Positions 10,404 through 27,976 of a DNA stretch of 64,000 nt are shown here, piece after piece. The translations under genes were made by a program, and so were the position numbers. Source of the stretch: Granulicella sp. L60 (GTDB lineage Bacteria; Acidobacteriota; Terriglobia; Terriglobales; Acidobacteriaceae); the NCBI RefSeq assembly GCF_009765825.1, contig NZ_LMUR01000018.1, positions 434,135 to 498,134 on the forward strand. Direction: 5' to 3'. Positions within the stretch are counted from its first letter, which is position 1. Each line of letters begins with the position of its first letter. The notes under the pieces were generated by a model. The model was not told the origin of the DNA. It searched no databases and saw nothing but the letters and a program-made list of their open reading frames with translations.

Positions 10404-11435
10404 TTACGCGGGCCGATAGTTCAGAGAACAGACGCAGCGCTGGCATGTAGGATTCGTCGCGATATCCAGTGAGCTGCGAAATGACAGTGCTGCCGGACTG
10501 TTGATGGCCTGATAGAGCGTCTGGTGTTTGATATTTCCCACTGATCCATGAAAGAAGCACGGCCGCACGCTGCCGTCGATCTCTACCACCGCGGAGACCC
10601 ACGGTGCGTTACACAGCGGAGCAGCAGGGCGCGACAAGCCAAGGTGCGCGCGGAACCGTTCCACAATCAGCCTCAGCTTCGCCGGGCTCTCGACGATAAA
10701 TCCACTATCAATATCATCCGCGCGCTCTTCGATCATTGAAATCATCTCGCGATCAAGCGCTGCGAGTTCTAAGGCGGTAAGTGCCACCTCGCTCTGACGC
10801 TCAGGCTCCCACGGGCGATCGCGATTGAAAGCCTGGGACGACAGATCCGCCGCGAGAAACGAGATGCTGTCGAAGTTCATGCGTTTTACTGCGGCAACCG
10901 TCTCGCGCAGATGAGTATGGTTAAACTTCTGAATCGTCGTTCGGCAGTTGATCACGATCGTAGGGCGCAGGCGGCGCACCTCTGCCATGCCTCGCTCGAT
11001 GAGCGCAAGTGCGTTCCGCACACGACGAATATGGTCGTGAACGGGAGCTGGCCCATCGATGGATATGATGACATCCGTAAAATATTCCGCGACGACTGCG
11101 GCGTGTTTGTAGAGCAGCAGGCCAGTGGTTAGTAAAGTAAGCCGGATATCGAGTTGACGGAAGAAATCGCACAGGCTTTCGAGTCGAGTGTGCAGAAGAG
11201 GCTCGCCCCCGGTAAGAACAACGTGTTGCACGCCGAGCCTCTTCAGGGAATCGCGATGACGCTCGAGATCCTCATGCTGTAATTCGTCGTGTTCTTTTCG
11301 TCTCCAGATGTCGCACATCACGCAGCGGCAGTTGCAGTTGCTATGCACGTTCAGAAGAAGGATAGGGAGCTGTTGTACGCGAGACATCTCATCTGGTGGC
11401 GCCTCAATAGGATGGATACTATAGAGCTGCGACAT
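10404..11435 (-). CDS. Radical SAM protein with SPASM-like C-terminal cysteines (last gene of cluster)
   Basis: 343 aa from the ATG at 11435, which overlaps the preceding stop by 17 bases; a further-upstream start would overlap by about 80 bases and adds non-conserved sequence. The radical SAM cluster site is CNCRCVMC (CxxxCxxC at Cys34, 38, 41), followed by the SAM-binding LTGGEPLL. The C-terminal part has a SPASM-like pattern: Cys before NAPW, then DGSVRPCFFHGSVGNI, then CQRCVC. This family architecture occurs in peptide-modifying maturases and in other enzymes binding auxiliary [4Fe-4S] clusters. No precursor peptide gene was found in the cluster. As the last gene of the run, it may carry out a late step. 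Confidence 0.85.
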   Translation of the reverse strand: MSQLYSIHPIEAPPDEMSRVQQLPILLLNVHSNCNCRCVMCDIWRRKEHDELQHEDLERHRDSLKRLGVQHVVLTGGEPLLHTRLESLCDFFRQLDIRLTLLTTGLLLYKHAAVVAEYFTDVIISIDGPAPVHDHIRRVRNALALIERGMAEVRRLRPTIVINCRTTIQKFNHTHLRETVAAVKRMNFDSISFLAADLSSQAFNRDRPWEPERQSEVALTALELAALDREMISMIEERADDIDSGFIVESPAKLRLIVERFRAHLGLSRPAAPLCNAPWVSAVVEIDGSVRPCFFHGSVGNIKHQTLYQAINSPAALSFRSSLDIATNPTCQRCVCSLNYRPA

Positions 11436-13362
11436 GGCGCACCGCCTTACCGCCCAGACGTAATTCGCCTTTACCGAGAACCTCTTCTGCAGAGGCAAAA
11501 AGAAAATCTAGGGGAGCACGCACCCATCGCATGTGTCCTTCCACCTCGAGTAGTTGCATCCCCACCCGTGCTTGTTGCGGCGTGCATTCGTAGATTTCAG
11601 CGGAAGCCATCTGAACGTTGCCGGAGATCATGACGAGTTCGATCTGATCGAATCTCAAATGCGCGACCGCCAGAGCTGGTTCGACATGAGGCGTACGAAC
11701 AGCGATCAAGTCCGCAACTCCCCCGTCGATAATCTCGCCTTCGCCATCGCGCAGACGAAGAATGGCGGCAGCTCCGCGTGTCACCATCTCATACGCCATG
11801 GTGGATGAGATTCCTGTCTGCTCATGCGCGTAATGAATCTCGTCGAGAAGGTCACCTGCACCGGTAAGAGGAGAGTCGCTCCCTAAAGCGATCCTGCGAA
11901 CCGAGTTGAGCCTCTCAAGTGACGGCGATTGATGGAACAGAAACTGATTGGAGCTAGGGCATGCGATTACCGCTGCATTGCGACTATTGATCAGCTCGAC
12001 ATCTTCTTTAGAGAGACCAAGTCCATGAACAAGTACTGTCCGATCATCTAGAAGAGACATCTCTTCAAGCCGCGTAATCTCACCGCAGGCCTCTACGTCC
12101 ACTCCTTCCGCTGCGTGAACAATGAACGGAGCATCGTGTGGAGTATCGCAAAACGTATGTGTGATCTCCGGGGCGAGGGCAAGAGAGTGAGACCATCGAA
12201 GATGTGAGACGACCCGCACCGGAAACTCTGTATGCGCAAAGTCAGGATGTGCGGGATTATGGTGGCAAACGGTCGTCACACCGCACAGCAGGTTGCGTAT
12301 AGTTCCCCACCATAGACGAGTCGATTTAGGAACCTGTCGATGTCGAGCGATGGTCTCTGCATGACGCGAGTGAATCTCCCTGGACCACTCCGTTGCATTT
12401 AGGTACGGATCCTCTTCAGAGTTCCGTCCAAGGTTTGGGAAGAGAGCAAACTCTAAATGGTCGTGCGCGTTGATAAGGCCGGGGAGAACCAGAAGACCAG
12501 AGAGGTCAAGAACAGATCTCGAAGCAACAGTTGCGGCAACGATAGCCGACGCGATGCGCCCCTTCGCTATATTCACCGTAGTTCCGTTGACTGTGGCCGG
12601 CCCGGACGAAATCGACGCATTCGTCAGCAGTAGCTCGTGAGGCGCCTGAAGATCAGAAGATGTGCGGTTCTTCTGTAGCTTGAGGATGTAGATTGCCGGC
12701 ACATCCGTAAGTCTGTCGTACTCCTCTAGTTTTCCGGATCGTTCAAAGATGAAACGTTCCGGTTCGTCGAAAGCGGGCGTTATCGCATGTTGCAGGCTGA
12801 ATCCCGACTTTTGGAATGCGGCTACAACCAGCGCCAGAGAACGGTCAAACCACGGAACTTCAAAATACTCACCGCCACACCGAAAGCTTCGACTCCACCC
12901 GCGAGAAGATGCTGTGTCGGGATTCAAATCAGAGAGGAGCAGTGTTCCGCCGGGACGCAGCACTCGGCTGCACTCGCGCGCGAAATTATCCAGATCCGGG
13001 AGATAGCTGAGGACAAAAGAGGAAAGAAGTACATCCACGGAGCCGTCGCTTACAGGCAGCGAGGAGCAGTCCCCGAGATGAAGCTGCGCCGTATCGTCAA
13101 GCTTGCTCTTAGCATGATCAAGCATGGCTGAAGAAGCGTCGATACCGCTCAACGATGCTGGCCCAAGCGCAGCGAGTTTGCCAAGCCAGCGTCCGGTACC
13201 GCAGCCTGCTTCGAAGACGCATTTCCCTCCGAGCGTCGGCAACAGCGCTTCGAGATGACGTTCCTCCAGCGTAAACATAGGATTATTCTGTTCGTCGTAG
13301 ATAGACGCCCAGATATCGAATTCCGTCAGCGGCGAAGGACTCGAGTTTGCGGTGACACTCAT
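11419..13362 (-). CDS. Fusion of a SAM-dependent methyltransferase and an amidohydrolase
   Basis: 647 aa. Residues ~1-230 form a class I methyltransferase (motif I FEAGCGTGRW, acidic GIDASSAM, then GDCSSLPVSDGSVD). Residues ~243-647 form a metal-dependent amidohydrolase of the cytosine-deaminase/AtzA-like group: HxH at His300/His302 (NAHDHLEF), His416 (IVHAAEG), His446 (LVHGLGL) and Asp496 (LGSDSPLT). Both halves appear catalytically complete, and a linker of ~15 residues (KNRTSSDLQAP) joins them in one uninterrupted frame. The start overlaps the upstream radical SAM stop by four bases (ATGA). The family suggests hydrolytic deamination or dechlorination-type chemistry on an N-heterocycle, coupled to methylation; the actual substrate is unknown. 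Confidence 0.85.
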   Translation of the reverse strand: MSVTANSSPSPLTEFDIWASIYDEQNNPMFTLEERHLEALLPTLGGKCVFEAGCGTGRWLGKLAALGPASLSGIDASSAMLDHAKSKLDDTAQLHLGDCSSLPVSDGSVDVLLSSFVLSYLPDLDNFARECSRVLRPGGTLLLSDLNPDTASSRGWSRSFRCGGEYFEVPWFDRSLALVVAAFQKSGFSLQHAITPAFDEPERFIFERSGKLEEYDRLTDVPAIYILKLQKNRTSSDLQAPHELLLTNASISSGPATVNGTTVNIAKGRIASAIVAATVASRSVLDLSGLLVLPGLINAHDHLEFALFPNLGRNSEEDPYLNATEWSREIHSRHAETIARHRQVPKSTRLWWGTIRNLLCGVTTVCHHNPAHPDFAHTEFPVRVVSHLRWSHSLALAPEITHTFCDTPHDAPFIVHAAEGVDVEACGEITRLEEMSLLDDRTVLVHGLGLSKEDVELINSRNAAVIACPSSNQFLFHQSPSLERLNSVRRIALGSDSPLTGAGDLLDEIHYAHEQTGISSTMAYEMVTRGAAAILRLRDGEGEIIDGGVADLIAVRTPHVEPALAVAHLRFDQIELVMISGNVQMASAEIYECTPQQARVGMQLLEVEGHMRWVRAPLDFLFASAEEVLGKGELRLGGKAVRHVAAL

Positions 13363-14834
13363 AAGCTTTCGCGCTTAGGTTTACGAAGCGCAATCAAATG
13401 GTTGGCCAGATGGAGCTCCACAGGAAAACTATAGATGTGAAGTGCATATCGCCACGCGCTCAGCATCTTCAACAGCCTGCGACTCCACTGTGGAGCACGA
13501 ATATCCTGAACCGTAGGCCACCGCGAGCCGACAACGATCTCAAAGTTATCGATGAGACGTTTGGTCTTCATCTTGAGCCACGGTGCATGCGTGTCGATGC
13601 GAAGTGTGAAGTCCATCCACTCTTTAGTGGCCCACTCTGCGGGCGTGTCCGGAAAATTGATCTTCGCGTCGATGTTGCCATACATCTCGCCACCGGCCTT
13701 ATGAGTCTGGGGCGTAGGCGTGTAGTGCTGAATAATGATTTCGGAGTCAGGATTGATCCGCTTGATCTTGCGGATAAAGCGAAGAGTCTCCCGCGTGTCT
13801 CGCTCAGGATCATTCGGGTTGCCGATGACGAAGGAAAACTCTGGGATGATGCCAAACTGATACGTTCTTTTAGCGATCTCAAGCGTCTGCGCGGTCGTAA
13901 TTCCTTTCTGCATCTCGTCAAGCACCCAATCCGAGCCGGACTCCGCGCCGAAGAAGATCATGGTGCAGCCGGCTCGCTTGATCGCGGCGAAGGTCTCATC
14001 CGAGTAGCGAGACATAATATCCACACGCGCCTCGCACCACCAGCGAAGGTTGAGGTGAGCCATCCTGTCGCAAAGCTCCCGCGCGTGGTCCTCGCGAAGA
14101 AAAAAATTCATGTCGTAGAACTGCACCGAGTCCGCGCCATACCGTTCCACAAGGTGCGTAAGAATCGCGACCGTGCGCTCCGGCGACTCCATCTTTTCCT
14201 TATTTCCATAGGCCGCATGAACGCCGCAAAAGGAGCAGTTGAAAGGGCAGCCTATACTCGCATGGTGGACCGCTGTCCGTTTACCAAAGAATGAAGGACG
14301 CAGATATGTCTCGGTCGGCAGACGATGAAAAGGAGACCAGGGAAACTCATCCGGACCTTTCATCGGACGTTCTGCATTACTGCGCTGCAAGCCAAACTGA
14401 TCCTTGTACGAAAGTCCAAGGATCGACTCGAAGCTGCGTCTTCCGCGCAGCGCGTCCATCAGTTCCAGCAGTGTATCTTCTCCCTGTCCGCGCACGATGA
14501 AGTCGACATAACGCGCATTCAGTGCAGATTCAGGATAGATAGAAGGGAAGTAGCCGCCCCAGCAGATCTTGACGTCAGGGCGCAGTCGGCGAATCTCGCG
14601 AGAGGTTTCCATAGCTGCAACCATCTGTGGCCCTGGCATGGTCGATACGCCAAGAAGCTCCACGTTATGCCGATCGATCAGGCCGAGAATAACGGCAGTG
14701 GGATCATCTTCCAGATTGCCGTCGACAATCTCATATTCCTCGCGGCCTTCCAGCACTGCCGCAAGCGCCAAAACTGCAAGAGGTAGACGGCGATTGCGCG
14801 GTCGAGTGGCTCTTGGATGGAAGAGTACGATCAT
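13359..14834 (-). CDS. B12-binding-domain-type radical SAM protein (BchE/HpnJ-like)
   Basis: 491 aa. The N-terminal Rossmann-like B12-binding-type domain (~1-140) includes GVSTMPGPQM and ICWGGYFPS but no DxHxxG, so base-off binding is expected. The radical SAM core has CPFNCSFC (CxxxCxxC), then FYDMNFFLR and FFGAESGSDWVLD, all typical of the BchE-like superfamily. A C-terminal extension of ~120 residues has basic and aromatic stretches. Such enzymes methylate unactivated carbon or phosphorus, or carry out cyclisations and rearrangements. Start and stop overlap its neighbours by four bases each, so it is firmly within the operon. Confidence 0.88.
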   Translation of the reverse strand: MIVLFHPRATRPRNRRLPLAVLALAAVLEGREEYEIVDGNLEDDPTAVILGLIDRHNVELLGVSTMPGPQMVAAMETSREIRRLRPDVKICWGGYFPSIYPESALNARYVDFIVRGQGEDTLLELMDALRGRRSFESILGLSYKDQFGLQRSNAERPMKGPDEFPWSPFHRLPTETYLRPSFFGKRTAVHHASIGCPFNCSFCGVHAAYGNKEKMESPERTVAILTHLVERYGADSVQFYDMNFFLREDHARELCDRMAHLNLRWWCEARVDIMSRYSDETFAAIKRAGCTMIFFGAESGSDWVLDEMQKGITTAQTLEIAKRTYQFGIIPEFSFVIGNPNDPERDTRETLRFIRKIKRINPDSEIIIQHYTPTPQTHKAGGEMYGNIDAKINFPDTPAEWATKEWMDFTLRIDTHAPWLKMKTKRLIDNFEIVVGSRWPTVQDIRAPQWSRRLLKMLSAWRYALHIYSFPVELHLANHLIALRKPKRESL

Positions 14835-15829
14835 CGTGCCACCTGTGCCTTATAAATATAAAAACGTGAGGGAGACCTTCGTCGCCGTAGCTTTGCGAGG
14901 AATGGACGCAGAGCCCAACGGACACCATAAAAAGGACGATGCACCGTAAGGTCAAGCTTGAGAGCCGATCTCAGATTATTAATGCGTTCATCAGTAAGAA
15001 ACTCGAGACTTGGAACGGAGTCTGAGGCAAATCCAAAACGCCGCTTGAAGTAGGTCTTCCGCTCTTCCACCATCTCGCGACCGCTGCTCTCGTGGAGATA
15101 CCACGGCGTATCTGCGATCAGCACAGCCCCTCCAGGCGCGGTGCAGCGCAACGCTTCACGGAGTGTTCGGATGTAGTCCGTAGAGTAGTGGAAGGACGAG
15201 TTGAAGATGACTAGGTTGAAGCTGGCATCTGCAAAGGGTAGGTGATCCACTTCAGCCTGTACACGGTGGAAGAGCGGTGAGATGCTGCCTGCATAGTGAC
15301 TCGCCGCACCCAGACCATCGCGATCATTCGTCAGAAGGTCAACAGCCACCGGAGCGTGTCCCATCCTGGCCAGCCGATAGCTAAGCCAGCCGTTGCCAGC
15401 GCCAAGGTCCAGCACTCGAAGAGGTTCGCCCTGACGTGCAGCCATCGTGGAAAGTATGTTGCGTTCTATATATTGGTAAGTCTTTGCACGAATCGACCAT
15501 TGCTGTTGATTTGCACCTGACCGATCCTTCCACGGCAGGGCAAGATAATAAGCCGCATCGCTGCTTCCACGGCCTTCGGCGGCGCGTATCGTCTCATAGT
15601 CTGCGATAAAAAGAGCGAAGTGCTCAATGCGATCCGACGTCAGGCAGCGCCAGATTCCATCCACGCACGGGAAGACGCTCTTACAGATAGGGCAGGTCGC
15701 AGAGATATCTCCGTCTGCATCTTCATGCGAGACTTGCAGCGGGACGACGCATCGAGGACAGCGTAGCAAGATCGCCATCTCTGATACTGACGAAGTTCGC
15801 ACGGACCCCTCAAGGTCAGGCTTCGACAT
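14831..15829 (-). CDS. Class I methyltransferase with N-terminal zinc-ribbon (Trm112-like) segment
   Basis: 332 aa. Residues ~20-60 carry two CxxC pairs (CPRC and CPIC), resembling the Trm112-like zinc domain fused to some natural-product methyltransferases. The SAM-binding core follows with VLDLGAGNGWLSYRLA and AVDLLTNDRDG, then VEADHLPFADASFNLV-like motif IV. The start has GAGGG six bases upstream and overlaps the previous stop by 14 bases. It lies between a second methyltransferase and a radical SAM gene, pointing to modification of the same product. The substrate is unknown. Confidence 0.85.
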   Translation of the reverse strand: MSKPDLEGSVRTSSVSEMAILLRCPRCVVPLQVSHEDADGDISATCPICKSVFPCVDGIWRCLTSDRIEHFALFIADYETIRAAEGRGSSDAAYYLALPWKDRSGANQQQWSIRAKTYQYIERNILSTMAARQGEPLRVLDLGAGNGWLSYRLARMGHAPVAVDLLTNDRDGLGAASHYAGSISPLFHRVQAEVDHLPFADASFNLVIFNSSFHYSTDYIRTLREALRCTAPGGAVLIADTPWYLHESSGREMVEERKTYFKRRFGFASDSVPSLEFLTDERINNLRSALKLDLTVHRPFYGVRWALRPFLAKLRRRRSPSRFYIYKAQVAR

Positions 15830-16646
15830 GGCTCACCCTCTCGAAGCGCAGCAGAATGTGGTCTCCGAAGTTACGAACTCCCGGCAGAGAAGCCACGAAG
15901 CTCTCTAATCGGCACAACACCTCGAAGACACGAGGATGTCTGCGAGCCCAGCCTTCCAAATAAGACGGTGGAACCGTTACACCTATTCCGACACATAAAC
16001 GCAGCTTGAAATAAGGATGAAACGCAGCCTTGAGTTGGCGAAGCGTTGGATAGTAGACAGCAAAAGTATGCTGATTAATAATCGCAACCGTACGGCCAGA
16101 GCAGCGTCGGAACGCCTTGCGCCACCGTCCGATCGATAGGAAGTAAAGTATCTCGGTGATGCAGAAACGAGTGGAGAAGCAGAGTAAGAGTTGAGACTCC
16201 GGCTTTACCAGTCGTGAAAGAGCGGCCGCCGTAGCGGGCAGATCCTCGATGCAGTTGAGTCCGGAAAAGTTAGAGAAGACTCCATCGAACATGCCCGCTT
16301 CCAACTCGTGAACACGCTCTGTAGGCAGATGGATAACGCCGATCGACGACTGCGGCTGCAGAAAACCTGCTCGTCTGCGAGCGATATCGACCATCTCTGA
16401 AGACGCATCGCATGCGAGTACCGTAACTCCCATGCGGGCAAGTTGAAGAGCATCTTCTCCCGTGCCGCAGTTCAGTTCAAGCACCGTATCGCCAGCCCGA
16501 AACGTATTTTGCAGAACGCTCCACACGGAGTTCCGCTGTGTGCGTCCGATCAGGGAAGACGTAAATGTTTCGTCGTAACTCGACGCAGCAAGGTCGAATG
16601 CAAGCCCTGCCGGTGGCGTGTTTGTGCTAAACGAGGATGCTGACAT
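15816..16646 (-). CDS. Class I SAM-dependent methyltransferase
   Basis: 276 aa. Motif I is VLELNCGTGEDALQLA with CDASSEMVDIAR behind it. The N-terminus (AFDLAASSYDETFTSSLIG) is typical of type-11 methyltransferases. The C-terminal half (~150-276) is longer than a minimal enzyme and contains hydrophobic stretches, possibly a substrate lid. The ATG follows the stop of the upstream radical SAM gene directly (TAAATG). It is one of three methyltransferase domains in the run. O-, N- and C-methylation cannot be told apart from sequence alone. Confidence 0.85.
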   Translation of the reverse strand: MSASSFSTNTPPAGLAFDLAASSYDETFTSSLIGRTQRNSVWSVLQNTFRAGDTVLELNCGTGEDALQLARMGVTVLACDASSEMVDIARRRAGFLQPQSSIGVIHLPTERVHELEAGMFDGVFSNFSGLNCIEDLPATAAALSRLVKPESQLLLCFSTRFCITEILYFLSIGRWRKAFRRCSGRTVAIINQHTFAVYYPTLRQLKAAFHPYFKLRLCVGIGVTVPPSYLEGWARRHPRVFEVLCRLESFVASLPGVRNFGDHILLRFERVSHVEA

Positions 16647-18053
16647 TTATGCATCCACCTCGGCCTGGGTTGCAAGCAGCCCTGCACGTGAGACTTGGAT
16701 GTCTGTTTGTAGCTGGTTGAGCAGTGCAATATCTGAGGCCGCATTGTCCTTTAGACGAGAGAGTTCGACCTCATCCCGCAGCAGCTTATCCGCATAGGCG
16801 TAGTAGCGCAGTGAGTGGCGTCCCTTGATCTTAATCTCGCGGTCGGAGCTCTGTCCCCAGGGCTTGAGCTGTACCAGTTTATCTTCTATCTGACGATAGT
16901 AAGGTGTGCCCTTGATTGGATAGGAGACCGTGGTGAAGAAGATGTCAGGCTTCGATTTGCTGACATGCTGGATCGTAGCTTCGATATCCTGCATCTCTTC
17001 ACCCTCGTACCCCCACATCAAGAACATGCCACTCTGAATTTTTCGCTGGCGGCTCATCTCGATCGCACGCTGCACCTGTTCAATCTTCACGCCGCGATCC
17101 ATGGAATCCAGCAGCCGCTGCGAGCCGCTCTCCGAACCGATCCATATGCGGAAGCACCCAAGCTCCTGCAGCAGGTCGAACATCTCATCGTTCAGACGAT
17201 CAGCACGCGAAATGCACTCAAATGGCATACGGAGACCGCGCTGCCGCATCTCTTTCGCATACTCACGCAGCCACGTGTGGTTGATCGTAAAGACGTCATC
17301 GGAGACCCACAGCATATCGGGCGAGTACTCCTTCACCAGCCACTCCACCTCATCGACAACTTTGATCGGATTGCGGCGCCGGTGCGTCTGCCCATACACC
17401 TGATGGCTGCACCACTGGCAGCGGAACGGACAGCCGCGTGCCGTAATGAAATTTACAGAGCCCTTGCCATGGTGTGTGCGCCACGTTTCGACATAGCGTT
17501 GAATGTCTATTGCTTTGCGCGCCGGCCATGGTTGCGCGTCGAGATCCGCTATCTGTGTTCGTGCCGGATTCTGGTGGAAGTGGCCTTCTGCATCCAGATA
17601 AGCGATGCCTGAGATGTCGGACCGCTTTGCATCTGTAGGGGTCTTGGCCACTCGTAACGCAGTAAGTAGCTCTTCCAGCGAATGCTCGCCTTCACCCGAC
17701 ACTACAAAATCCGCGCCCTCCTGTAGATATTCAAGAGCGTATGCACCCGGCTCCGGCCCACCTACAACAACCGTCCAGCCCGCGCTACGTGCAATGCCAG
17801 CAATCTCGACGACATTGCTTCTTGTCATCAGGTTCGCATAGATACCAAGTACGGATGGCTTCTCGGACTGCAGGTGCTGAATCAACGCATCACGACTGGA
17901 GAAGGTCGTGTCGAACACATCGACAGAAAATCCTTTGGAACGCAGATGAGAACAAAGGTAAAGAATGCCCAGCGGCGCATAGGGCTTCATGACCTTCAGC
18001 TCTTTAGGATCTTCGTAAAGAAAATATCCATGCGTAAGCAATAGATCGGGCAT
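16647..18053 (-). CDS. B12-binding-domain-type radical SAM protein
   Basis: 468 aa. The N-terminal domain starts MPDLLLTHGYFLYEDP and contains APLGILYLCSHLRSKGF and VVVGGPEPGAYA. The radical SAM site is CPFRCQWC. Downstream IWIGSESGSQRLLDSMDRG and SGMFLMWGYEGEE match the BchE-like group. It resembles the next upstream gene product in its opening (LLTH...PYAPLGxLY) and active-site surroundings, suggesting an old tandem duplication followed by divergence. The start ATG overlaps the upstream stop by one base (TAATG). Confidence 0.88.
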   Translation of the reverse strand: MPDLLLTHGYFLYEDPKELKVMKPYAPLGILYLCSHLRSKGFSVDVFDTTFSSRDALIQHLQSEKPSVLGIYANLMTRSNVVEIAGIARSAGWTVVVGGPEPGAYALEYLQEGADFVVSGEGEHSLEELLTALRVAKTPTDAKRSDISGIAYLDAEGHFHQNPARTQIADLDAQPWPARKAIDIQRYVETWRTHHGKGSVNFITARGCPFRCQWCSHQVYGQTHRRRNPIKVVDEVEWLVKEYSPDMLWVSDDVFTINHTWLREYAKEMRQRGLRMPFECISRADRLNDEMFDLLQELGCFRIWIGSESGSQRLLDSMDRGVKIEQVQRAIEMSRQRKIQSGMFLMWGYEGEEMQDIEATIQHVSKSKPDIFFTTVSYPIKGTPYYRQIEDKLVQLKPWGQSSDREIKIKGRHSLRYYAYADKLLRDEVELSRLKDNAASDIALLNQLQTDIQVSRAGLLATQAEVDA

Positions 18054-19558
18054 TAGGACTCCGTTGTCCCCGCGAGGAGCTGCACGAGCGGCGCACCGGT
18101 TGAGGAGAACCGAGGTTGCTCGCCCATATCGTCCGAAAGCGTTAGCGCATCTGGATTCCGGCCGTAGCGTTCCATCTCAACGAGGCGTTGCCAGAGCTGT
18201 TGTGCTGATTCATGAGAGGTCGGCGCGGTAGCACTGCTCCACGTTGCAACCTCCGCATGCATGGCGTCGCGCAGCACCCGATAGAACTCATCCGTGTACG
18301 GCGCGGTGAACATGATGCAGAGGTCATCGCTGTTCATCCAGTTTCGTTTGCTTCCAAGCTGCGCCTGCACACGTTCGTAAAAGCGGGTGCCCGGCAGCGG
18401 ATAGCTTAGCGAGACACCGATGTCATCCGGACGTGTCTGGCGTATCACCTCGGCTGTTTCGACGATCTCCGCCCATCCTTCGCCGGGATAGCCGAACTGA
18501 ATAAAATAGCATGCGCGAATATTAGCTTTGCGCAGACGCTCACGCGCGATATAGACATCGGTGAGTGATAGGTTCTTGTCCATGGCGTCCAATATCTTCT
18601 GCGATCCGGACTCCACACCCATCCATATCTCAGCGCAACCAGCTCGTTTCAGTGCAGCCACCGTCGACTCGGACATCAGGTCCGCGCGGGACTGAATCTT
18701 GAAGGGCAACACCGCGCCCTGTAGCTCCATCTCTTTGGCAAACTCTTCGATCCACCGATGATCGAGCGCAAAGATATCGTCTCCAAACCAGATGTGATCG
18801 ACTTGATGGACTACCTTGAGGGTGTGAATCTCCGCTGCCACGGCAGCCGGTTGACGAACCCGAAATTTGTTGCCGGAGATAGGTTTTGCACACCAGTTGC
18901 ATTGATAGGGGCACCCACGGCTGGAGACGACGTTCGTGGAGAAGTAACCATGCGCCTCAGTCCACGCCGCACGGTAGGGCTCCATGTCGATCAGATCACG
19001 CGCCGGTGGCGGCAGCTCTGTCCAGCTTGGATTCTTCGCAGTGGACTCTGCGCTTTGCCTCAGCTTTCCGTCACAGTCGAACGAGACAACACCGGCAACG
19101 TTGAGTGGCTTCTTCGATTGAAGAAGCTCCGCGCAGACATCAATCAACGCCCGTTCCGCCTCGCCATTGAGAACGTAATCGACGTTGTTACGTAGATACT
19201 CTGAAGCATGATCGGTAGCGTCGGACCCGTGAGCGACGACCGTCGCTCCCTGCGCATGTGCCAGTTCCGCAAGCCGATGCGCAGTCGTTCGCATGTGGTC
19301 CAGACACATCTTGGTGACGAAATTGAAGTCGTCCTCATAGATCACCACAATCTCCGGCCGATGCTGTTCAAGCGCACGCGCAAAGCCGCCAAAGGGATCC
19401 TCAGCAAGCATGACGTCGAATACCGCAACCGAGATCCCCGCTGAGCGCAGAGCGGATGCTGCATACAGGGTGCCCAGCGGAGGATAGGGCTGCATCTTGC
19501 GCATCTGCTTTGCGTCGAACCGAAGGTGATTCGAATGTGTCAGTAATACAGTGCTCAC
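18053..19558 (-). CDS. B12-binding-domain-type radical SAM protein
   Basis: 501 aa from a GTG at 19558. This start is preferred because AAAGGAGGG lies seven bases upstream and because the product then begins VSTVLLTHSNHLRF, aligning with the N-terminus of its paralogue at 16647-18053; a start 72 bases further upstream adds unrelated residues. The radical SAM site is CPYQCNWC, with IWMGVESGSQKILDAMDKN later. The B12-type domain includes PYPPLGTLYAASALRSAG. Overlaps the following gene by one base. A 133-base gap with a possible hairpin separates it from the preceding radical SAM gene. Confidence 0.87.
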   Translation of the reverse strand: MSTVLLTHSNHLRFDAKQMRKMQPYPPLGTLYAASALRSAGISVAVFDVMLAEDPFGGFARALEQHRPEIVVIYEDDFNFVTKMCLDHMRTTAHRLAELAHAQGATVVAHGSDATDHASEYLRNNVDYVLNGEAERALIDVCAELLQSKKPLNVAGVVSFDCDGKLRQSAESTAKNPSWTELPPPARDLIDMEPYRAAWTEAHGYFSTNVVSSRGCPYQCNWCAKPISGNKFRVRQPAAVAAEIHTLKVVHQVDHIWFGDDIFALDHRWIEEFAKEMELQGAVLPFKIQSRADLMSESTVAALKRAGCAEIWMGVESGSQKILDAMDKNLSLTDVYIARERLRKANIRACYFIQFGYPGEGWAEIVETAEVIRQTRPDDIGVSLSYPLPGTRFYERVQAQLGSKRNWMNSDDLCIMFTAPYTDEFYRVLRDAMHAEVATWSSATAPTSHESAQQLWQRLVEMERYGRNPDALTLSDDMGEQPRFSSTGAPLVQLLAGTTES

Positions 19559-19691
19559 GCAAGCCCTCCTTTCATGGATCCCGTAAACCTCACGGATCGT
19601 TCCGATACCCCCGCAGCTTTCAGCCCACACAGTGACGATTCAAGAGAAGCCTCGCGGCGGGACAGCCTAAAAGAGCCGTCCGTCTTCCCGC

Positions 19692-21215
19692 TTAGCACGC
19701 AGCCTCCGCCCGTGTGCGGGAGAGCCGCTTCGCATCCACCGCGGGCTTCAATGTTGCCGTCCGCTTCTTCAGCTTGCTATTGAGCCATAGCTCGACAGGC
19801 ATGCCGTAGACGTCATGATCGAGCCGCCAGCGTGCCGGAATCGAGATCGACTTCTGCGCCAGCCTCGTAATCGGGTCCCTGGTGTCCGAGCCGATAGGGA
19901 TGCGGTCGAATGCGATTCGTAGATAGTCACGCGTATTCTGCAGACGCTGGTGATCCTTGCCCTTCAGCCACGGAAGCTTGGTATAACGCGGAAAGAAGTC
20001 AGCCCATCCTTCAAGCGAATCCGGTGGTTCGATACCAATCTCGGCGGCGCGTTTCATAATCGGCGAGCCAGGATAGGGAGTAAAGATGTTGGTCCAGAAC
20101 TCAGCTCCGGGGAAGCGGCGGCAGACGTCCATCATGAAGTCGATGGTCTCCCTGCGCTCCTTGCGGCCCTCCCCGGGGTACGCGAAGATGATGTTGAACG
20201 AGGGGCGAATATCGGCTGCAATGCACCGCGCCGCACTCTCGTAGATCTGGTCAAAGTCCTGGAAGGTCTTGTTCATCAGCTGCAGAATCTTCGGTGAGCC
20301 AGAATCCACACCCTGGCATATCTGCTGCAGTCCTGCGCGGCGCAGTAGTTTCAGATCTTCAGTCGTTAACCGCGAGGTCAAGTTTGTGGTCGCCTGTATG
20401 CTCCACCTGTACTGCGAGTTTGCGCGAACCAATCTCTCGGCGATCTCACGTGCCCGGTCCAGGTCCACCAGGAAGTTGTCGTCGACGACCCATAGCAGTT
20501 CAAGCTTGTACCGGCGGGTAAGATCGACCGTCTCTTCTGCAAACTGTTCAGCACCTAGCGCATTCCACTTGCGTCCGTAGACGCCGCCATTGGTGCAGTA
20601 CGCGCAGTCGAACGGACAGGCCAGGCTCGAGGTATACATCGCCCAGCGTCGTCCGCAGCCACGCTCATACGCATCGAAATCCGCGATCTGATACGCCTTG
20701 GGCGGCATATCCACCAGCGGCCTCAGCGCACGTTCAGGAGTCAGAATCAGCTTGCCGTCGCGTTTGAATCCGATCCCAGGAATGAGGTCCGGTGCCGAGC
20801 CGCTTTCAAGATGCTGAATCAACTCCAGCATCGCATCTTCGCCTTGGCCGCGCACGATGTAGTCCAGGCAGGTCGCCTTCAGCGTCTGATCCGGAAGCAG
20901 TGATGGGTGCCAGCCTCCAAGGATGATAGGAAAGTCAGGATTCCAATCCTTGATGCTCTGCGCCATCTCCACGGTCTCGCGAATCATCGGCCCCGTGACC
21001 AGCGAGACGCCAAGACAAAGTGCATCCTGGACCTCCAGCAGAACACGTTTCTTGAAGTCCGGAGTTATGGTCGAATCGATCAGCACCACTTCGTAGCCGG
21101 CTCGAATCAAGGGCGTCGCCACCGCGAGAATACCTAGCGGAGCAGTAGCCTCCGAACTCGCGAAGGAAGGAAAAAAGAAGACGATTTTCTTAGAGCGGGT
21201 TTTCTGGATGGGCAT
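19692..21215 (-). CDS. B12-binding-domain-type radical SAM protein (first of the run)
   Basis: 507 aa from the ATG at 21215 (an in-frame TTG lies six bases earlier). The N-terminal domain contains TAPLGILAVATPLIRAGYEV and IILGGWHPSLLPDQ. The CxxxCxxC site is CPFDCAYC, followed by LLWVVDDNFLVD and ICQGVDSGSPKILQLMN. The C-terminal extension ends in a basic stretch (KRTATLKPAVDAKRLSRTR). It is the most upstream gene of the eight-gene cluster and probably the first from its promoter. The intergenic region ahead of it carries operator-like repeats. Confidence 0.88.
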   Translation of the reverse strand: MPIQKTRSKKIVFFFPSFASSEATAPLGILAVATPLIRAGYEVVLIDSTITPDFKKRVLLEVQDALCLGVSLVTGPMIRETVEMAQSIKDWNPDFPIILGGWHPSLLPDQTLKATCLDYIVRGQGEDAMLELIQHLESGSAPDLIPGIGFKRDGKLILTPERALRPLVDMPPKAYQIADFDAYERGCGRRWAMYTSSLACPFDCAYCTNGGVYGRKWNALGAEQFAEETVDLTRRYKLELLWVVDDNFLVDLDRAREIAERLVRANSQYRWSIQATTNLTSRLTTEDLKLLRRAGLQQICQGVDSGSPKILQLMNKTFQDFDQIYESAARCIAADIRPSFNIIFAYPGEGRKERRETIDFMMDVCRRFPGAEFWTNIFTPYPGSPIMKRAAEIGIEPPDSLEGWADFFPRYTKLPWLKGKDHQRLQNTRDYLRIAFDRIPIGSDTRDPITRLAQKSISIPARWRLDHDVYGMPVELWLNSKLKKRTATLKPAVDAKRLSRTRAEAAC

Positions 21216-21290
21216 CGGCAACTCAAGCTCGCTAAGAGCGTTCTTACTGATGACGATCCTAGGCTGAGCGCAAAGTGAAGTTGTCGGTGC

Positions 21291-21378: not shown

Positions 21379-22581
21379 TCAGCTCTTCGCAGGATTGGAG
21401 GAGAGATGCAAAGGTCCAGCATCTTCACTGGAAGGGCTAATAAAACGAACCTGATTGCGTCCGCTCTTCTTCGCAGTGTAGAGCGCGACATCTGCTTCTT
21501 GCAGTAGCTCCGCGCCTGTAATCGATTCGCGCCCATGCGTGGAAGTCGCGCCAAAACTTGCAGTCGTGTGGATCGTCGCAAGTGGCACTGTGCCGCCGTC
21601 CTGCTCCACAGCCATGCGAAGACGCTCCAGAATCGCGTATGACTCTTCCGCATTCGTATGCGGCAGAAGCAATACGAACTCTTCTCCACCCACGCGACCC
21701 AACACATCGGTCTCTCGCAACGTCTGCTTCAGCAGCGCAGCGACTCCGACAAGTACAGCATCGCCTGTGGCATGGCCATGCGTGTCGTTGAGCCGCTTGA
21801 AATGATCGAGATCCACCATGGCAACCGTAAGACTGTATTTATAGCGGGTATAGCGTGCAAGTTCTCGTTCGAGCGCCTGCTCCAGGCCGCGACGATTGAG
21901 CACCTGTGTCAGAGGGTCCAGGATGCTCTGCTGTATCAGGTTCGCCTCCAGCCGCGCATTCATCATCCAGATAAAAGCCAACGGAAGCACGGAGGTGTTC
22001 ACGATGTACGCTACTGCGCTCGTAACCTCAAGCTTCCTCGAAAAGGCATCCGGATCCGCATGAAGCAGAAAGGCGACACCCACGCGAGCAAGCTCAACCA
22101 TGGCGAACACGAAAAGAAATCCTCCCATCAGCAAGCGAGGCGCTCGTGTCGACCGTTCCGTCCCGGTGCACAGAATCACCGCCGCGACGAGAACCTCCAG
22201 AGCGATCGCCAGGTCCGCCAGGGCAAAGCTGCGAACCTGCGCGGGATCGTTGCGCCATGCCAGAAACAAAGGCAGCGTCGCCAGCAGAATCGCGCCGGAG
22301 ATCCACACCGCCTTTTTATAACGGCCCTCAAAGTACACGATGGCTACAGTAGTGAATGCGTAGGAGAGCGGAATCATCTCGAGGTTGATCCCATGACTGA
22401 TCCAGCTCGGCAGATAGTTTGCAAGAAGATCGAAGATAGCGCCTGTCGCATTCGCCAGAAAGCTGTACCAAAGCCAGCGTCGGGTCGCGTCGCTCCAGCG
22501 CTGCAGCGCCAGCACGCCAAAGATGATGGCGAAGCAAAGCAGCTGTATGTCCTGGATCAGAAGAGTCGCGTCTACCAACAT
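21379..22581 (-). CDS. Membrane-anchored GGDEF diguanylate cyclase
   Basis: 400 aa. About seven hydrophobic segments cover residues 1-215, then a GGDEF domain begins at DPLTQVLNRRGLEQ. The active site is GGEEF and the inhibitory site RETD lies five residues before it, so feedback-inhibited synthesis of cyclic di-GMP from GTP is expected. It lies upstream of the radical SAM cluster on the same strand with a 163-base gap, so co-transcription is possible but not required. The signal sensed by the membrane part is unknown. Confidence 0.9.
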   Translation of the reverse strand: MLVDATLLIQDIQLLCFAIIFGVLALQRWSDATRRWLWYSFLANATGAIFDLLANYLPSWISHGINLEMIPLSYAFTTVAIVYFEGRYKKAVWISGAILLATLPLFLAWRNDPAQVRSFALADLAIALEVLVAAVILCTGTERSTRAPRLLMGGFLFVFAMVELARVGVAFLLHADPDAFSRKLEVTSAVAYIVNTSVLPLAFIWMMNARLEANLIQQSILDPLTQVLNRRGLEQALERELARYTRYKYSLTVAMVDLDHFKRLNDTHGHATGDAVLVGVAALLKQTLRETDVLGRVGGEEFVLLLPHTNAEESYAILERLRMAVEQDGGTVPLATIHTTASFGATSTHGRESITGAELLQEADVALYTAKKSGRNQVRFISPSSEDAGPLHLSSNPAKS

Positions 22582-27898: not shown

Positions 27899-27976
27899 TG
27901 GCGTCCCCGACAAGATTCGAACTTGTGTCTTCGCCATGAGACGGCGGTGTCCTGGGCCTGGCTAGACGACAGGGAC
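27899..27976 (-). tRNA. tRNA-Glu (anticodon CTC)
   Basis: On the minus strand the RNA begins GTCCCTG and ends CGGGGAC-G-CCA, giving a seven-pair acceptor stem with one wobble and an encoded CCA. The T arm is ACAAG-TTCGAAT-CTTGT. The anticodon loop is GTCTCAT, with U33 and anticodon CTC reading GAG. The D arm GTC-loop-GAC has a loop two bases longer than in E. coli tRNA-Glu. The anticodon stem has four pairs with a C-A mismatch at 27-43. The overall sequence closely tracks bacterial tRNA-Glu. Confidence 0.93.

Follow-up and report, generated by a model that had tools for sequence, protein, structure and literature searches.

What does a compact run of eight genes make when four of its products are B12-binding radical SAM enzymes? 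Such enzymes are responsible for some of the most demanding carbon chemistry in nature, and few of them have been linked to a substrate. The run is located at 10404–21221 on the minus strand of a 64,000-nucleotide stretch of the genome of Granulicella sp. L60 (contig NZ_LMUR01000018.1, positions 434,135 to 498,134; hereafter the window). The original prediction, made from the DNA letters alone, was that of a dedicated pathway with no recognisable product class. Comparison with relatives instead suggests a class by context, and the cassette is read here as a conserved and possibly movable set of tailoring genes for an unusual surface-glycan building block (a sugar or a glycoside), an interpretation given a probability of roughly 40%. 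No description of the cassette was found in the literature among the matches listed by a full-text search of open-licence papers, as judged by title and the start of the abstract.

Gene content and organization

Of the eight cassette products, four are B12-binding radical SAM enzymes and one is a radical SAM protein of the SPASM type; the remaining three comprise two methyltransferases and a methyltransferase-deaminase fusion (Table 1). The likely starts of A, G and H were chosen by the author from the translations, and with these starts the neighbouring genes overlap by 17 (A/B), 4 (B/C), 4 (C/D), 14 (D/E) and 1 (F/G) bases, E and F abut, and a gap of 133 bases separates G from H. The ORF coordinates therefore agree with the coupling of eight minus-strand genes, gap included, that had been claimed.

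Table 1. Predicted genes of the cassette, from H to A (ORF coordinates in the window)
Gene	Predicted product	Coordinates	Strand	Remarks
H	B12-binding radical SAM enzyme, 509 aa	19692..21221	-	likely ATG start 21215
G	B12-binding radical SAM enzyme	18053..19630	-	likely GTG start 19558
F	B12-binding radical SAM enzyme, 468 aa	16647..18053	-	Pfam domains
E	class I SAM methyltransferase, 276 aa	15816..16646	-	PF13649 50.1 bits
D	class I SAM methyltransferase, 332 aa	14831..15829	-	PF08241 53.5 bits
C	B12-binding radical SAM enzyme, 491 aa	13359..14834	-	PF02310 61.7, PF04055 60.6 bits
B	methyltransferase-deaminase fusion, 647 aa	11419..13362	-	Pfam domains
A	SPASM radical SAM protein	10404..11498	-	likely ATG start 11435

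A GGDEF gene, an alpha/beta hydrolase gene and an MBL-fold gene flank the cassette in the window, and no glycan gene adjoins it. These flanks were rejected as a shared site, as only 4 of 60 congeners have the GGDEF neighbour, and the MBL gene, found in 43 of 60 (the window genome being counted in both cases), is unlinked from the cassette in G018 and G054, two genomes which were compared one by one. No B12 riboswitch was found in the window at the Rfam gathering score, a tRNA being the only match.

Predicted enzymes of the cassette

Pfam analysis agreed with the enzyme types originally assigned, with B12-binding and Radical_SAM domains above the cut-off in C, F, G and H, Radical_SAM and SPASM domains in A, and methyltransferase domains in B, D and E. 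The CxxxCxxC motif is intact in all five radical SAM proteins. On the basis of their domains and this motif, C, F, G and H are placed in the B12-dependent radical SAM superfamily; kinship in radical SAM sequence does not fix the reaction.

H (PF02310 61.6 bits, PF04055 70.2 bits; motif CPFDCAYC) has true copies in 26 type I loci, 74–84% identical to the window protein. G (35.4 and 67.5 bits for the same domains; CPYQCNWC) is the member common to both cassette types and to other phyla, with at least 558 relatives among 593 pattern matches (family alignment A1). Its paralogue F (33% identity; CPFRCQWC) has a median identity of 71% in 27 type I loci, and a search with F at 1e-60 gave matches in 41 of 396 genomes of the phylum, some of them solely via G. 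The most conserved cassette protein is C (CPFNCSFC), with a median identity of 81% in 27 type I loci, while A carries the motif CNCRCVMC (PF04055 60.9 bits, PF13186 42.2 bits). Among the methyltransferases, E also occurs in the majority of sister cassettes and in further phyla and was found in 58 of 80 G-loci (rows below 80 aa left out); D, which has N-terminal CxxC pairs kept within its family, was found in 36 of the 80 and was not found by tblastn in 5 of 27 type I loci.

The closest solved chain to G is AprD4 (6fd2), also the best solved match of C, and at 1e-6 cytosylglucuronate decarboxylase (7vob/7voc) provided the only matches of A. These closest solved relatives are enzymes of sugars or nucleosides, a resemblance counted in favour of a glycan product. 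The best solved matches of F and H are an unnamed protein and the methyltransferase TokK, respectively, so not every relative indicates sugars.

B had been described as a methyltransferase-amidohydrolase fusion. The fusion stands, with the methyltransferase at residues ~1–235 and a metal-dependent deaminase of the amidohydrolase superfamily at 240–647, where Pfam places Amidohydro_1; this half is now assigned more narrowly, to the deaminase branch (AtzA/TrzN, MTA/SAH deaminase, guanine deaminase). It possesses the HxH, H, H and D residues of amidohydrolase-superfamily deaminases, and H300, H302, H416, H446 and D496, presumably metal ligands and proton shuttle, are invariant in 27 aligned sequences. 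The nearest folds to the structure model of B (pLDDT 91.8) are AtzA and the MTA/SAH (adenosine) deaminases. MtaD/DadD (deaminases of 5'-deoxyadenosine, MTA and SAH) and AtzA/TrzN resemble the C-terminal half of B in fold and metal ligands; however, B is only 15–20% identical to them, is fused to a methyltransferase and remains below the listed deaminase models (PRK07228 44/522 bits, PRK08393 59/617, PRK09045 58/540). The two halves are separate adjoining genes in several other loci.

Comparison with named families

No cassette protein reached the cut-off of a listed NCBIfam model, and by Pfam none of the eight proteins has an NRPS, PKS or terpene domain; the prediction of a dedicated pathway outside recognised families, free of such genes, is borne out. 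A hopanoid pathway was rejected, with best cassette scores of 110/577.6 bits for HpnJ and 102/650 for HpnR and the genuine HpnJ of this genome lying outside the cassette at C20:480480–481889 (743 bits). BchE (Mg-protoporphyrin cyclase) and HpnJ share the B12-binding and radical SAM architecture of the cassette enzymes, but F scores 160 bits against the BchE cut-off of 481. TIGR04072, which covers B12/radical SAM proteins of ladderane-type lipid clusters, is the best NCBIfam model for G and the second for H. The scores (G 123, F 122, H 107 and C 75 bits) are below its cut-off of 360, and ladderane and other lipid models were likewise rejected. Genes of the TIGR04072 type cluster with other radical SAM and methyltransferase genes; unlike in those systems, no lipid genes were seen among the cassette neighbour proteins scanned.

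The diol-dehydratase AprD4 of apramycin belongs to the same superfamily as G and C. It acts on a sugar substrate, which would fit the glycan context of the cassette. The AprD4 model NF033070 (cut-off 500) was not reached (G 87, C 63, F 57 and H 47 bits), and the eight-gene run has no gene for a partner reductase. A nucleotidyltransferase is paired with a B12 radical SAM enzyme in the phosphonate pathways of the Fom1/Fom3 and PhpK type, as a nucleotidyltransferase-like gene is in G-loci, but F attains only 132 bits with the PhpK model (cut-off 600). Similarly, A scores 54 bits against a cut-off of 400 for the cytosylglucuronate decarboxylase BlsE/MilG (TIGR04466), and none of the remaining genes of this pathway was noticed in the eight-gene run.

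Conserved gene order and a fifth B12 radical SAM enzyme

Gene counts in relatives were obtained by tblastn, because the longest-first ORF caller misses genes beneath long antisense ORFs. In 41 loci, the window included (rows below 120 or 180 aa left out), the order was HhGFEDCBA in fourteen, HGFEDCBA in eight, EGDB in seven and different in twelve, where h denotes H2; 22 of the 41, the window among them, thus have exactly one of the first two orders. Among the matches listed, carriers include Edaphobacter modestus, E. lichenicola and Granulicella sp. dw_53. As the order recurs in other genera of the Acidobacteriaceae, the grouping of the genes goes beyond chance. Across 27 type I loci, true copies of the cassette genes are 39–87% identical to those of the window; there were only paralogue matches for G in L024 and for G and H in L030, which begins at a contig end. 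The homologues are hence not scattered singletons, and the original prediction survives the comparison of neighbourhoods.

H2 is a fifth B12 radical SAM enzyme, often encoded directly after H in Acidobacteriaceae, where the set then has nine genes instead of eight. It is missing from the window cassette, and the same genome has an unlinked H2 at C19:587352–588845. The original count of four such enzymes is correct for the window run, whereas the fullest set in relatives is five. Retention of H2 in this genome despite its unlinking was counted in favour of the surface-glycan reading.

Exopolysaccharide genes near the cassette

Of 57 genomes bearing B, 49 were passed for analysis and eight were left out; twenty genomes were called sister-cassette, eleven being examined as loci and nine by a deaminase-only match. 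In 39 of the 49, an NTP_transf_5 gene is located no more than 30 kb from the cassette (~1 expected), and at least 11 have Poly_export genes inside the same distance (3.0 expected), these chance levels assuming uniform placement in a fixed 5.3 Mb genome and ignoring shared ancestry. The type I genomes examined have NTP_transf_5 adjoining a Wza(SLBB)-Wzz-Wzx-GT4 locus. In sister cassettes the NTP_transf_5 gene is an operon member and therefore no independent sign of a glycan locus, and the absence of the link from 10 of the 49 genomes counts against a glycan product. The sole NTP_transf_5 gene of the window genome is on another contig (C12) with its exopolysaccharide locus; a Wzx/Wzy locus stands beside the cassette in many relatives, not at the window's own site. 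This separation and the lack of glycan genes around the window cassette also count against the glycan reading.

The core pair of G and E also occurs in Chloroflexi, Bacteroidetes and other phyla, where polysaccharide genes often adjoin it. Outside the Acidobacteria, at least 12 of 39 genomes have a Wzy_C gene no more than 30 kb from G, against 2.2 expected, a number reached in none of 200000 simulations with uniform placement and ancestry ignored. Against the glycan reading, 27 of the 39 have no Wzy_C gene within this distance among the matches listed. Four Anaerolineae-type loci (L132, L141, L143 and L150) show Wzy, GT2, nucleotidyltransferase #6, G, E and Wzx consecutively. The nucleotidyltransferase-like gene #6, a companion of G in 30 of 80 loci, has weak fold matches, none at E 0.001 or better; its homology with NTP_transf_5 was considered and dismissed, none being detected.

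Gene proximity is not function. The frequent location beside surface-sugar genes nevertheless suggests that the cassette probably serves to make or decorate a small molecule of the cell surface, an unusual sugar or otherwise, and these Wzx/Wzy loci, together with the gene content of the sister cassette, replace the earlier verdict of no recognisable product class with a contextual one.

Alternative explanations

The main rival, considered unlikely, is a diffusible metabolite derived from GTP, which would be a methylated pyrimidine, pteridine or nucleoside and might be glycosylated; the deaminase half of B would act on the ring and the radical SAM enzymes would C-methylate it. The pathway would resemble those of the toxoflavin type, which start from GTP cyclohydrolase II, and the sister cassette often encodes its own copy of this enzyme along with glycosyltransferases. 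The cyclohydrolase gene is within the operon in 8 of 11 sister-cassette loci, with the conserved Cys and catalytic stretches intact in eight aligned sequences, and 9 of 11 also have a macrolide-type glycosyltransferase (the one scanned scored 175 bits, below the cut-off of 260). At least three copies of GTP cyclohydrolase II were counted in 9 of 11 sister-cassette genomes tested and in 5 of 24 type I genomes, compared with two in each of six cassette-less genomes, and the gene lies beside the type I loci L038, L041 and L105. The placement of B in a nucleobase-deaminase branch and the nearness of A to cytosylglucuronate decarboxylase also favour such a product, and the lack of an obvious place for GTP cyclohydrolase II in a sugar pathway counts against a glycan. 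However, 19 of 24 type I genomes lack a third copy, as do 2 of the 11 with a sister cassette, and a dedicated enzyme was rejected for the window genome, which has only the two baseline copies of the cassette-less genomes. Only 8 of 80 G-loci have the gene, all acidobacterial and none outside the Acidobacteria within the fetched DNA, and the cross-phylum exopolysaccharide link would be left unexplained. There is also close to an even chance that the deaminase half of B is a pure by-product scavenger (a SAH, MTA or 5'-deoxyadenosine deaminase), which is compatible with any product; B would then be uninformative about it. This is suggested by its nearest solved structures, triazine hydrolases and MTA/SAH (adenosine) deaminases, and by its fusion or adjacency to a methyltransferase, which would make SAH. 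In addition, the deaminase (30 loci) and a nucleoside phosphorylase- or nucleosidase-like gene (10 loci) occur together in none of 80 G-loci, as expected for replacements. Yet the exclusion tracks phylogeny (nine of the ten nucleosidase-like loci are from Chloroflexi and one is from Bacteroidetes), the nucleosidase-like gene reaches no model cut-off, and besides the low identity of the deaminase half to solved deaminases, relatives of B too are below every listed deaminase model, with guanine and 8-oxoguanine deaminase models scoring equally or better in some.

Modification of a membrane lipid or glycolipid, by C-methylation or crosslinking of the hopanoid, ladderane or tetraether kind, is improbable. 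B12 radical SAM methylation of an unactivated carbon has a precedent in 3-methylhopanoids, ladderane-type, HpnJ and HpnR models are among the NCBIfam relatives, and a GT87 protein is located near several cassettes. All scores are nevertheless far below the cut-offs, the best being those given above for BchE and the ladderane model, a genuine HpnJ exists elsewhere in the genome, and lipid-synthesis families are absent from the subset of neighbour proteins scanned. A RiPP pathway with its precursor encoded elsewhere has very little probability, even though SPASM and B12 radical SAM enzymes are frequent peptide modifiers and the HprK-like and NTP_transf_5 neighbours recall lasso peptides, beside which such proteins also occur. 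The lasso-peptide context was abandoned when the locus turned out to be one for exopolysaccharide. None of the clusters among 1539 small ORFs (intergenic regions and 1.5 kb flanks of 28 loci) included the window, and the largest comprised only six and five relatives; with no conserved small ORF adjoining the window cassette, a local peptide precursor is unlikely, in line with the earlier report of no RiPP precursor in the run. Nor did A and the four B12 enzymes reach a listed RiPP model cut-off (best 25 models for A and F). Also against the lasso-peptide context, three of the recurrent small neighbours turned out to be cytochrome- or cupredoxin-like, with a larger one weakly porin-like (E 0.0065) and one without a family.

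Proposed role in surface-glycan tailoring

Under the preferred interpretation of surface-glycan tailoring, the substrate would be a sugar, or a polyol resembling one, which is attached to a nucleotide or lipid carrier and modified successively by the B12 radical SAM enzymes. In the order of steps proposed here, the putative ancestral pair would contribute a radical C-methylation or deoxygenation at an unactivated carbon (G) and a methyl transfer to O or N (E). Further radical steps may be carried out by F, C, H and H2, further methyl transfers by D and the first half of B, and one SPASM radical step by A. The deaminase half of B would remove S-adenosylhomocysteine and 5'-deoxyadenosine, since the pathway would make these by-products in quantity, or would deaminate an intermediate. 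The product, which may be highly methylated or rearranged as first supposed, would be passed to the Wzx/Wzy/Wza machinery for exopolysaccharide, whose genes many relatives carry close to the cassette.

A broader and more doubtful proposal is that the core of G and E, often with a nucleotidyltransferase, represents a widespread and undescribed class of glycan tailoring in the Wzx/Wzy loci of several phyla, which in the Acidobacteriaceae would have expanded to five B12 radical SAM enzymes, acting in succession to C-methylate or otherwise remodel one sugar-like unit. If true, the product would be a kind of surface sugar in which radical chemistry has installed several carbon modifications, and the cassette behind it would be one that relocates and can become dispersed while all its parts are kept. 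Up to five B12 radical SAM enzymes are found in this one conserved gene set of soil acidobacteria, and if the glycan reading holds it would open a class of carbon-modified surface sugars.

Architecture of the Cassette

The original prediction of eight minus-strand genes in a tight run was borne out, as the genes (A to H) are real open reading frames of the window and are arranged as reported. When the junctions were measured with likely internal starts (A at 11435, G at 19558 and H at 21215), six of the seven were overlaps of 1–17 bases or abutments and the seventh (G-H) was a gap of 133 bases. The predicted enzyme make-up was likewise confirmed by Pfam: C, F, G and H each pair a B12-binding with a radical SAM domain, A joins a radical SAM domain to a SPASM domain, D and E carry methyltransferase domains, and B has a methyltransferase domain in its first half and Amidohydro_1 in its second. 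Each of the window's five radical SAM proteins has the CxxxCxxC motif. When residues 31–330 of their relatives (one F fragment left out) were searched for this pattern, it was found in C (29/29), F (28/28), H (26/26), G (37/38), A (27/29) and a fifth B12 radical SAM enzyme, H2 (19/20). Coordinates of other features are collected in the table.

Features within and outside the window
Feature	Position	Strand	Remarks
GGDEF diguanylate cyclase	window 21379-22581	-	directly upstream of H; of 60 congeners (window genome counted), only 4 have a homologue at 1e-80
tRNA	window 27902-27976	-	sole Rfam match at gathering score within the window
Unlinked H2 of the window genome (G000)	G000:C19:587352-588845 = L192:8353-9846	-	497 aa, CPYACNYC; outside the window
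Further methyltransferase gene	L192:6566-7543		0.8 kb downstream of unlinked H2
Nucleotidyltransferase-like family (cluster #6)	L136:7989-8987	+	also at 21 other loci; adjoins G in many non-acidobacterial loci
Extra GTP cyclohydrolase II (example)	L050:13342-13989	-	dedicated copy within the operon at L048-L051 and L055-L058; operon also has a B12 radical SAM enzyme, deaminase and glycosyltransferases
GT87/PD40 protein (cluster 9, with relatives)	L048:5515-7626	-	703 aa; one half a GT87 glycosyltransferase, with PD40 beta-propeller repeats; found near type I and sister cassettes alike

Conservation within the Order

The cassette is patchily distributed across the order. Of 298 genomes, 57 (window genome counted) have B, 31 of these as the full fusion; in the other 241 it was absent at 1e-20. 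Forty loci of ~20 kb each (two of 17.4 kb) were taken and their genes typed by tblastn, giving 41 loci with the window. The order H-H2-G-F-E-D-C-B-A was observed in 14, H-G-F-E-D-C-B-A in eight (the window being one) and H-H2-G-F-E-C-B-A in three. Eleven carried a sister cassette (seven E-G-D-B, one E-G-D-B with an extra antisense hit, one E-G-B and two G-D-B-A), and the remaining five were single variants, one cut by a contig end.

Median tblastn identities to the window over 27 loci of the window's cassette type (type I) were 81% for C, 78% for H, 71% for F, 58% for G, 56% for A, 53% for D (22 loci), 51% for E and 47% for B. The ranges among type I loci with a true copy were 71–87% (C), 74–84% (H, 26 loci), 61–78% (F), 53–66% (G, 25 loci), 47–63% (A), 43–58% (D), 40–58% (E) and 39–54% (B). 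The radical enzymes C, H and F are thus more tightly conserved than the methyltransferases.

H2 is a paralogue of H (38% identity) which occurs in 20 of the 40 loci typed beside the window and is missing from the window cassette. An unlinked H2 does occur in the window genome, on another contig (C19); it is up to 71% identical to those of its relatives, and a FastTree tree placed it inside the H2 clade adjoining that of locus L037, where H2 has likewise moved and sits between B and A. Around the unlinked gene are a GH57 branching enzyme, a peptidase, another methyltransferase and an FAD monooxygenase, none being cassette genes. Its retention suggests that the five B12 radical SAM enzymes (C, F, G, H and H2) work together.

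Wider Distribution of G and Chemistry

A G profile scan of one genome per species (84,980 species) gave at least 558 relatives among the 593 pattern matches listed, of which the best 80 were kept. These include Acidobacteriaceae (Granulicella sp. dw_53, Edaphobacter modestus, E. lichenicola and Acidicapsa dinghuensis) as well as Chloroflexi, Bacteroidetes, Ignavibacteria, Planctomycetes, Gemmatimonadetes and others. By tblastn, the 80 loci held E (58), F (36), D (36), C (34), A (25), H (22), H2 (20), the methyltransferase half of B (29) and cluster #6 (30). In an Acidobacteriota MAG (L138), two very long ORFs of 980 and 926 aa have F-like and H-like matches and are perhaps fused cassette enzymes.

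Among solved structures, G and C are both nearest by sequence to AprD4 (aminoglycoside sugar), A to cytosylglucuronate decarboxylase, H to the methyltransferase TokK and F to an unnamed radical SAM protein (9ccb). The predicted structure of B (pLDDT 91.8) matches AtzA, TrzN and MTA/SAH (adenosine) deaminases at 15–20% identity. Among the best 80 loci the deaminase was found in 30, a nucleoside phosphorylase-like gene in 10 and both together in none, an exclusion which fits interchangeable by-product removal but follows phylogeny. For cluster #6, one of two members scanned had no Pfam match and the other weak matches only; its structure is predicted with good confidence (pLDDT 85), and the fold matches were all weaker than E 0.001, many being MNT antitoxins and aminoglycoside nucleotidyltransferases.

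Sister Cassette and Predicted Role

In the 11 sister loci (L048-L058) B consists of the deaminase only, and F, C and H are matched by paralogues only, while A is found in 2, D in 10 and E in 9. Their companions are NTP_transf_5, a macrolide-type glycosyltransferase, a PhyH dioxygenase and an HprK-like protein (9/11 each), and GTP cyclohydrolase II and a GT87 protein (8/11 each). The cyclohydrolase is an extra copy: two are present in the window genome and in each of six cassette-less genomes, and three or more in 9 of 11 sister-cassette and 5 of 24 type I genomes. In an alignment of eight of its sequences (seven sister-type loci and one of type I, L105, all within L098-L108), the cysteine and catalytic stretches are conserved. 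A GTP-derived metabolite as the product of the cassette is ranked second and is unlikely. A lipid product is ranked lower and is improbable, and a RiPP is placed after it as a very improbable reading.

The most likely reading, with a probability of about 0.4, is a tailoring set for a surface-glycan unit. In four Chloroflexi loci (L132, L141, L143 and L150) Wzy, GT2, #6, G, E and Wzx are consecutive with a GT4 alongside, and in L164 (Chitinophaga sp. YR573) #6, G and E are followed by two proteins of the O-antigen-ligase type (one scoring under its cut-off), a GT4 and an ABC protein. Of the 43 loci from outside the Acidobacteria, four lay on short contigs and were excluded; Wzy_C was mapped in the genomes of the other 39 and lay within 30 kb of G in at least 12, L164 not among them, vs. 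2.2 expected, and 0 of 200000 simulations were as high. In Acidobacteriaceae, an NTP_transf_5 gene is found no more than 30 kb from the cassette in 21 of the 29 type I genomes and in 18 of the 20 sister-type ones (~1 of 49 expected), and Poly_export genes are as close in at least 11 of 49 (3.0 expected); expected counts assume uniform placement and ignore shared ancestry. NTP_transf_5 is the first operon gene in sister cassettes; where type I genomes were examined, it has an SLBB export gene next to it, the locus being identified in the window genome and G029 as Wza-Wzz-Wzx with a GT4-type gene. In the window genome this exopolysaccharide locus, also with Wzy and WecG, is on a contig (C12) without the cassette.

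That the cassette genes are grouped, conserved and distinct from the named families listed is firmly established. So far as congeners were compared, the genes flanking the window cassette marked no site shared with them; the cassette thus seems able to move, yet often lies near exopolysaccharide genes.
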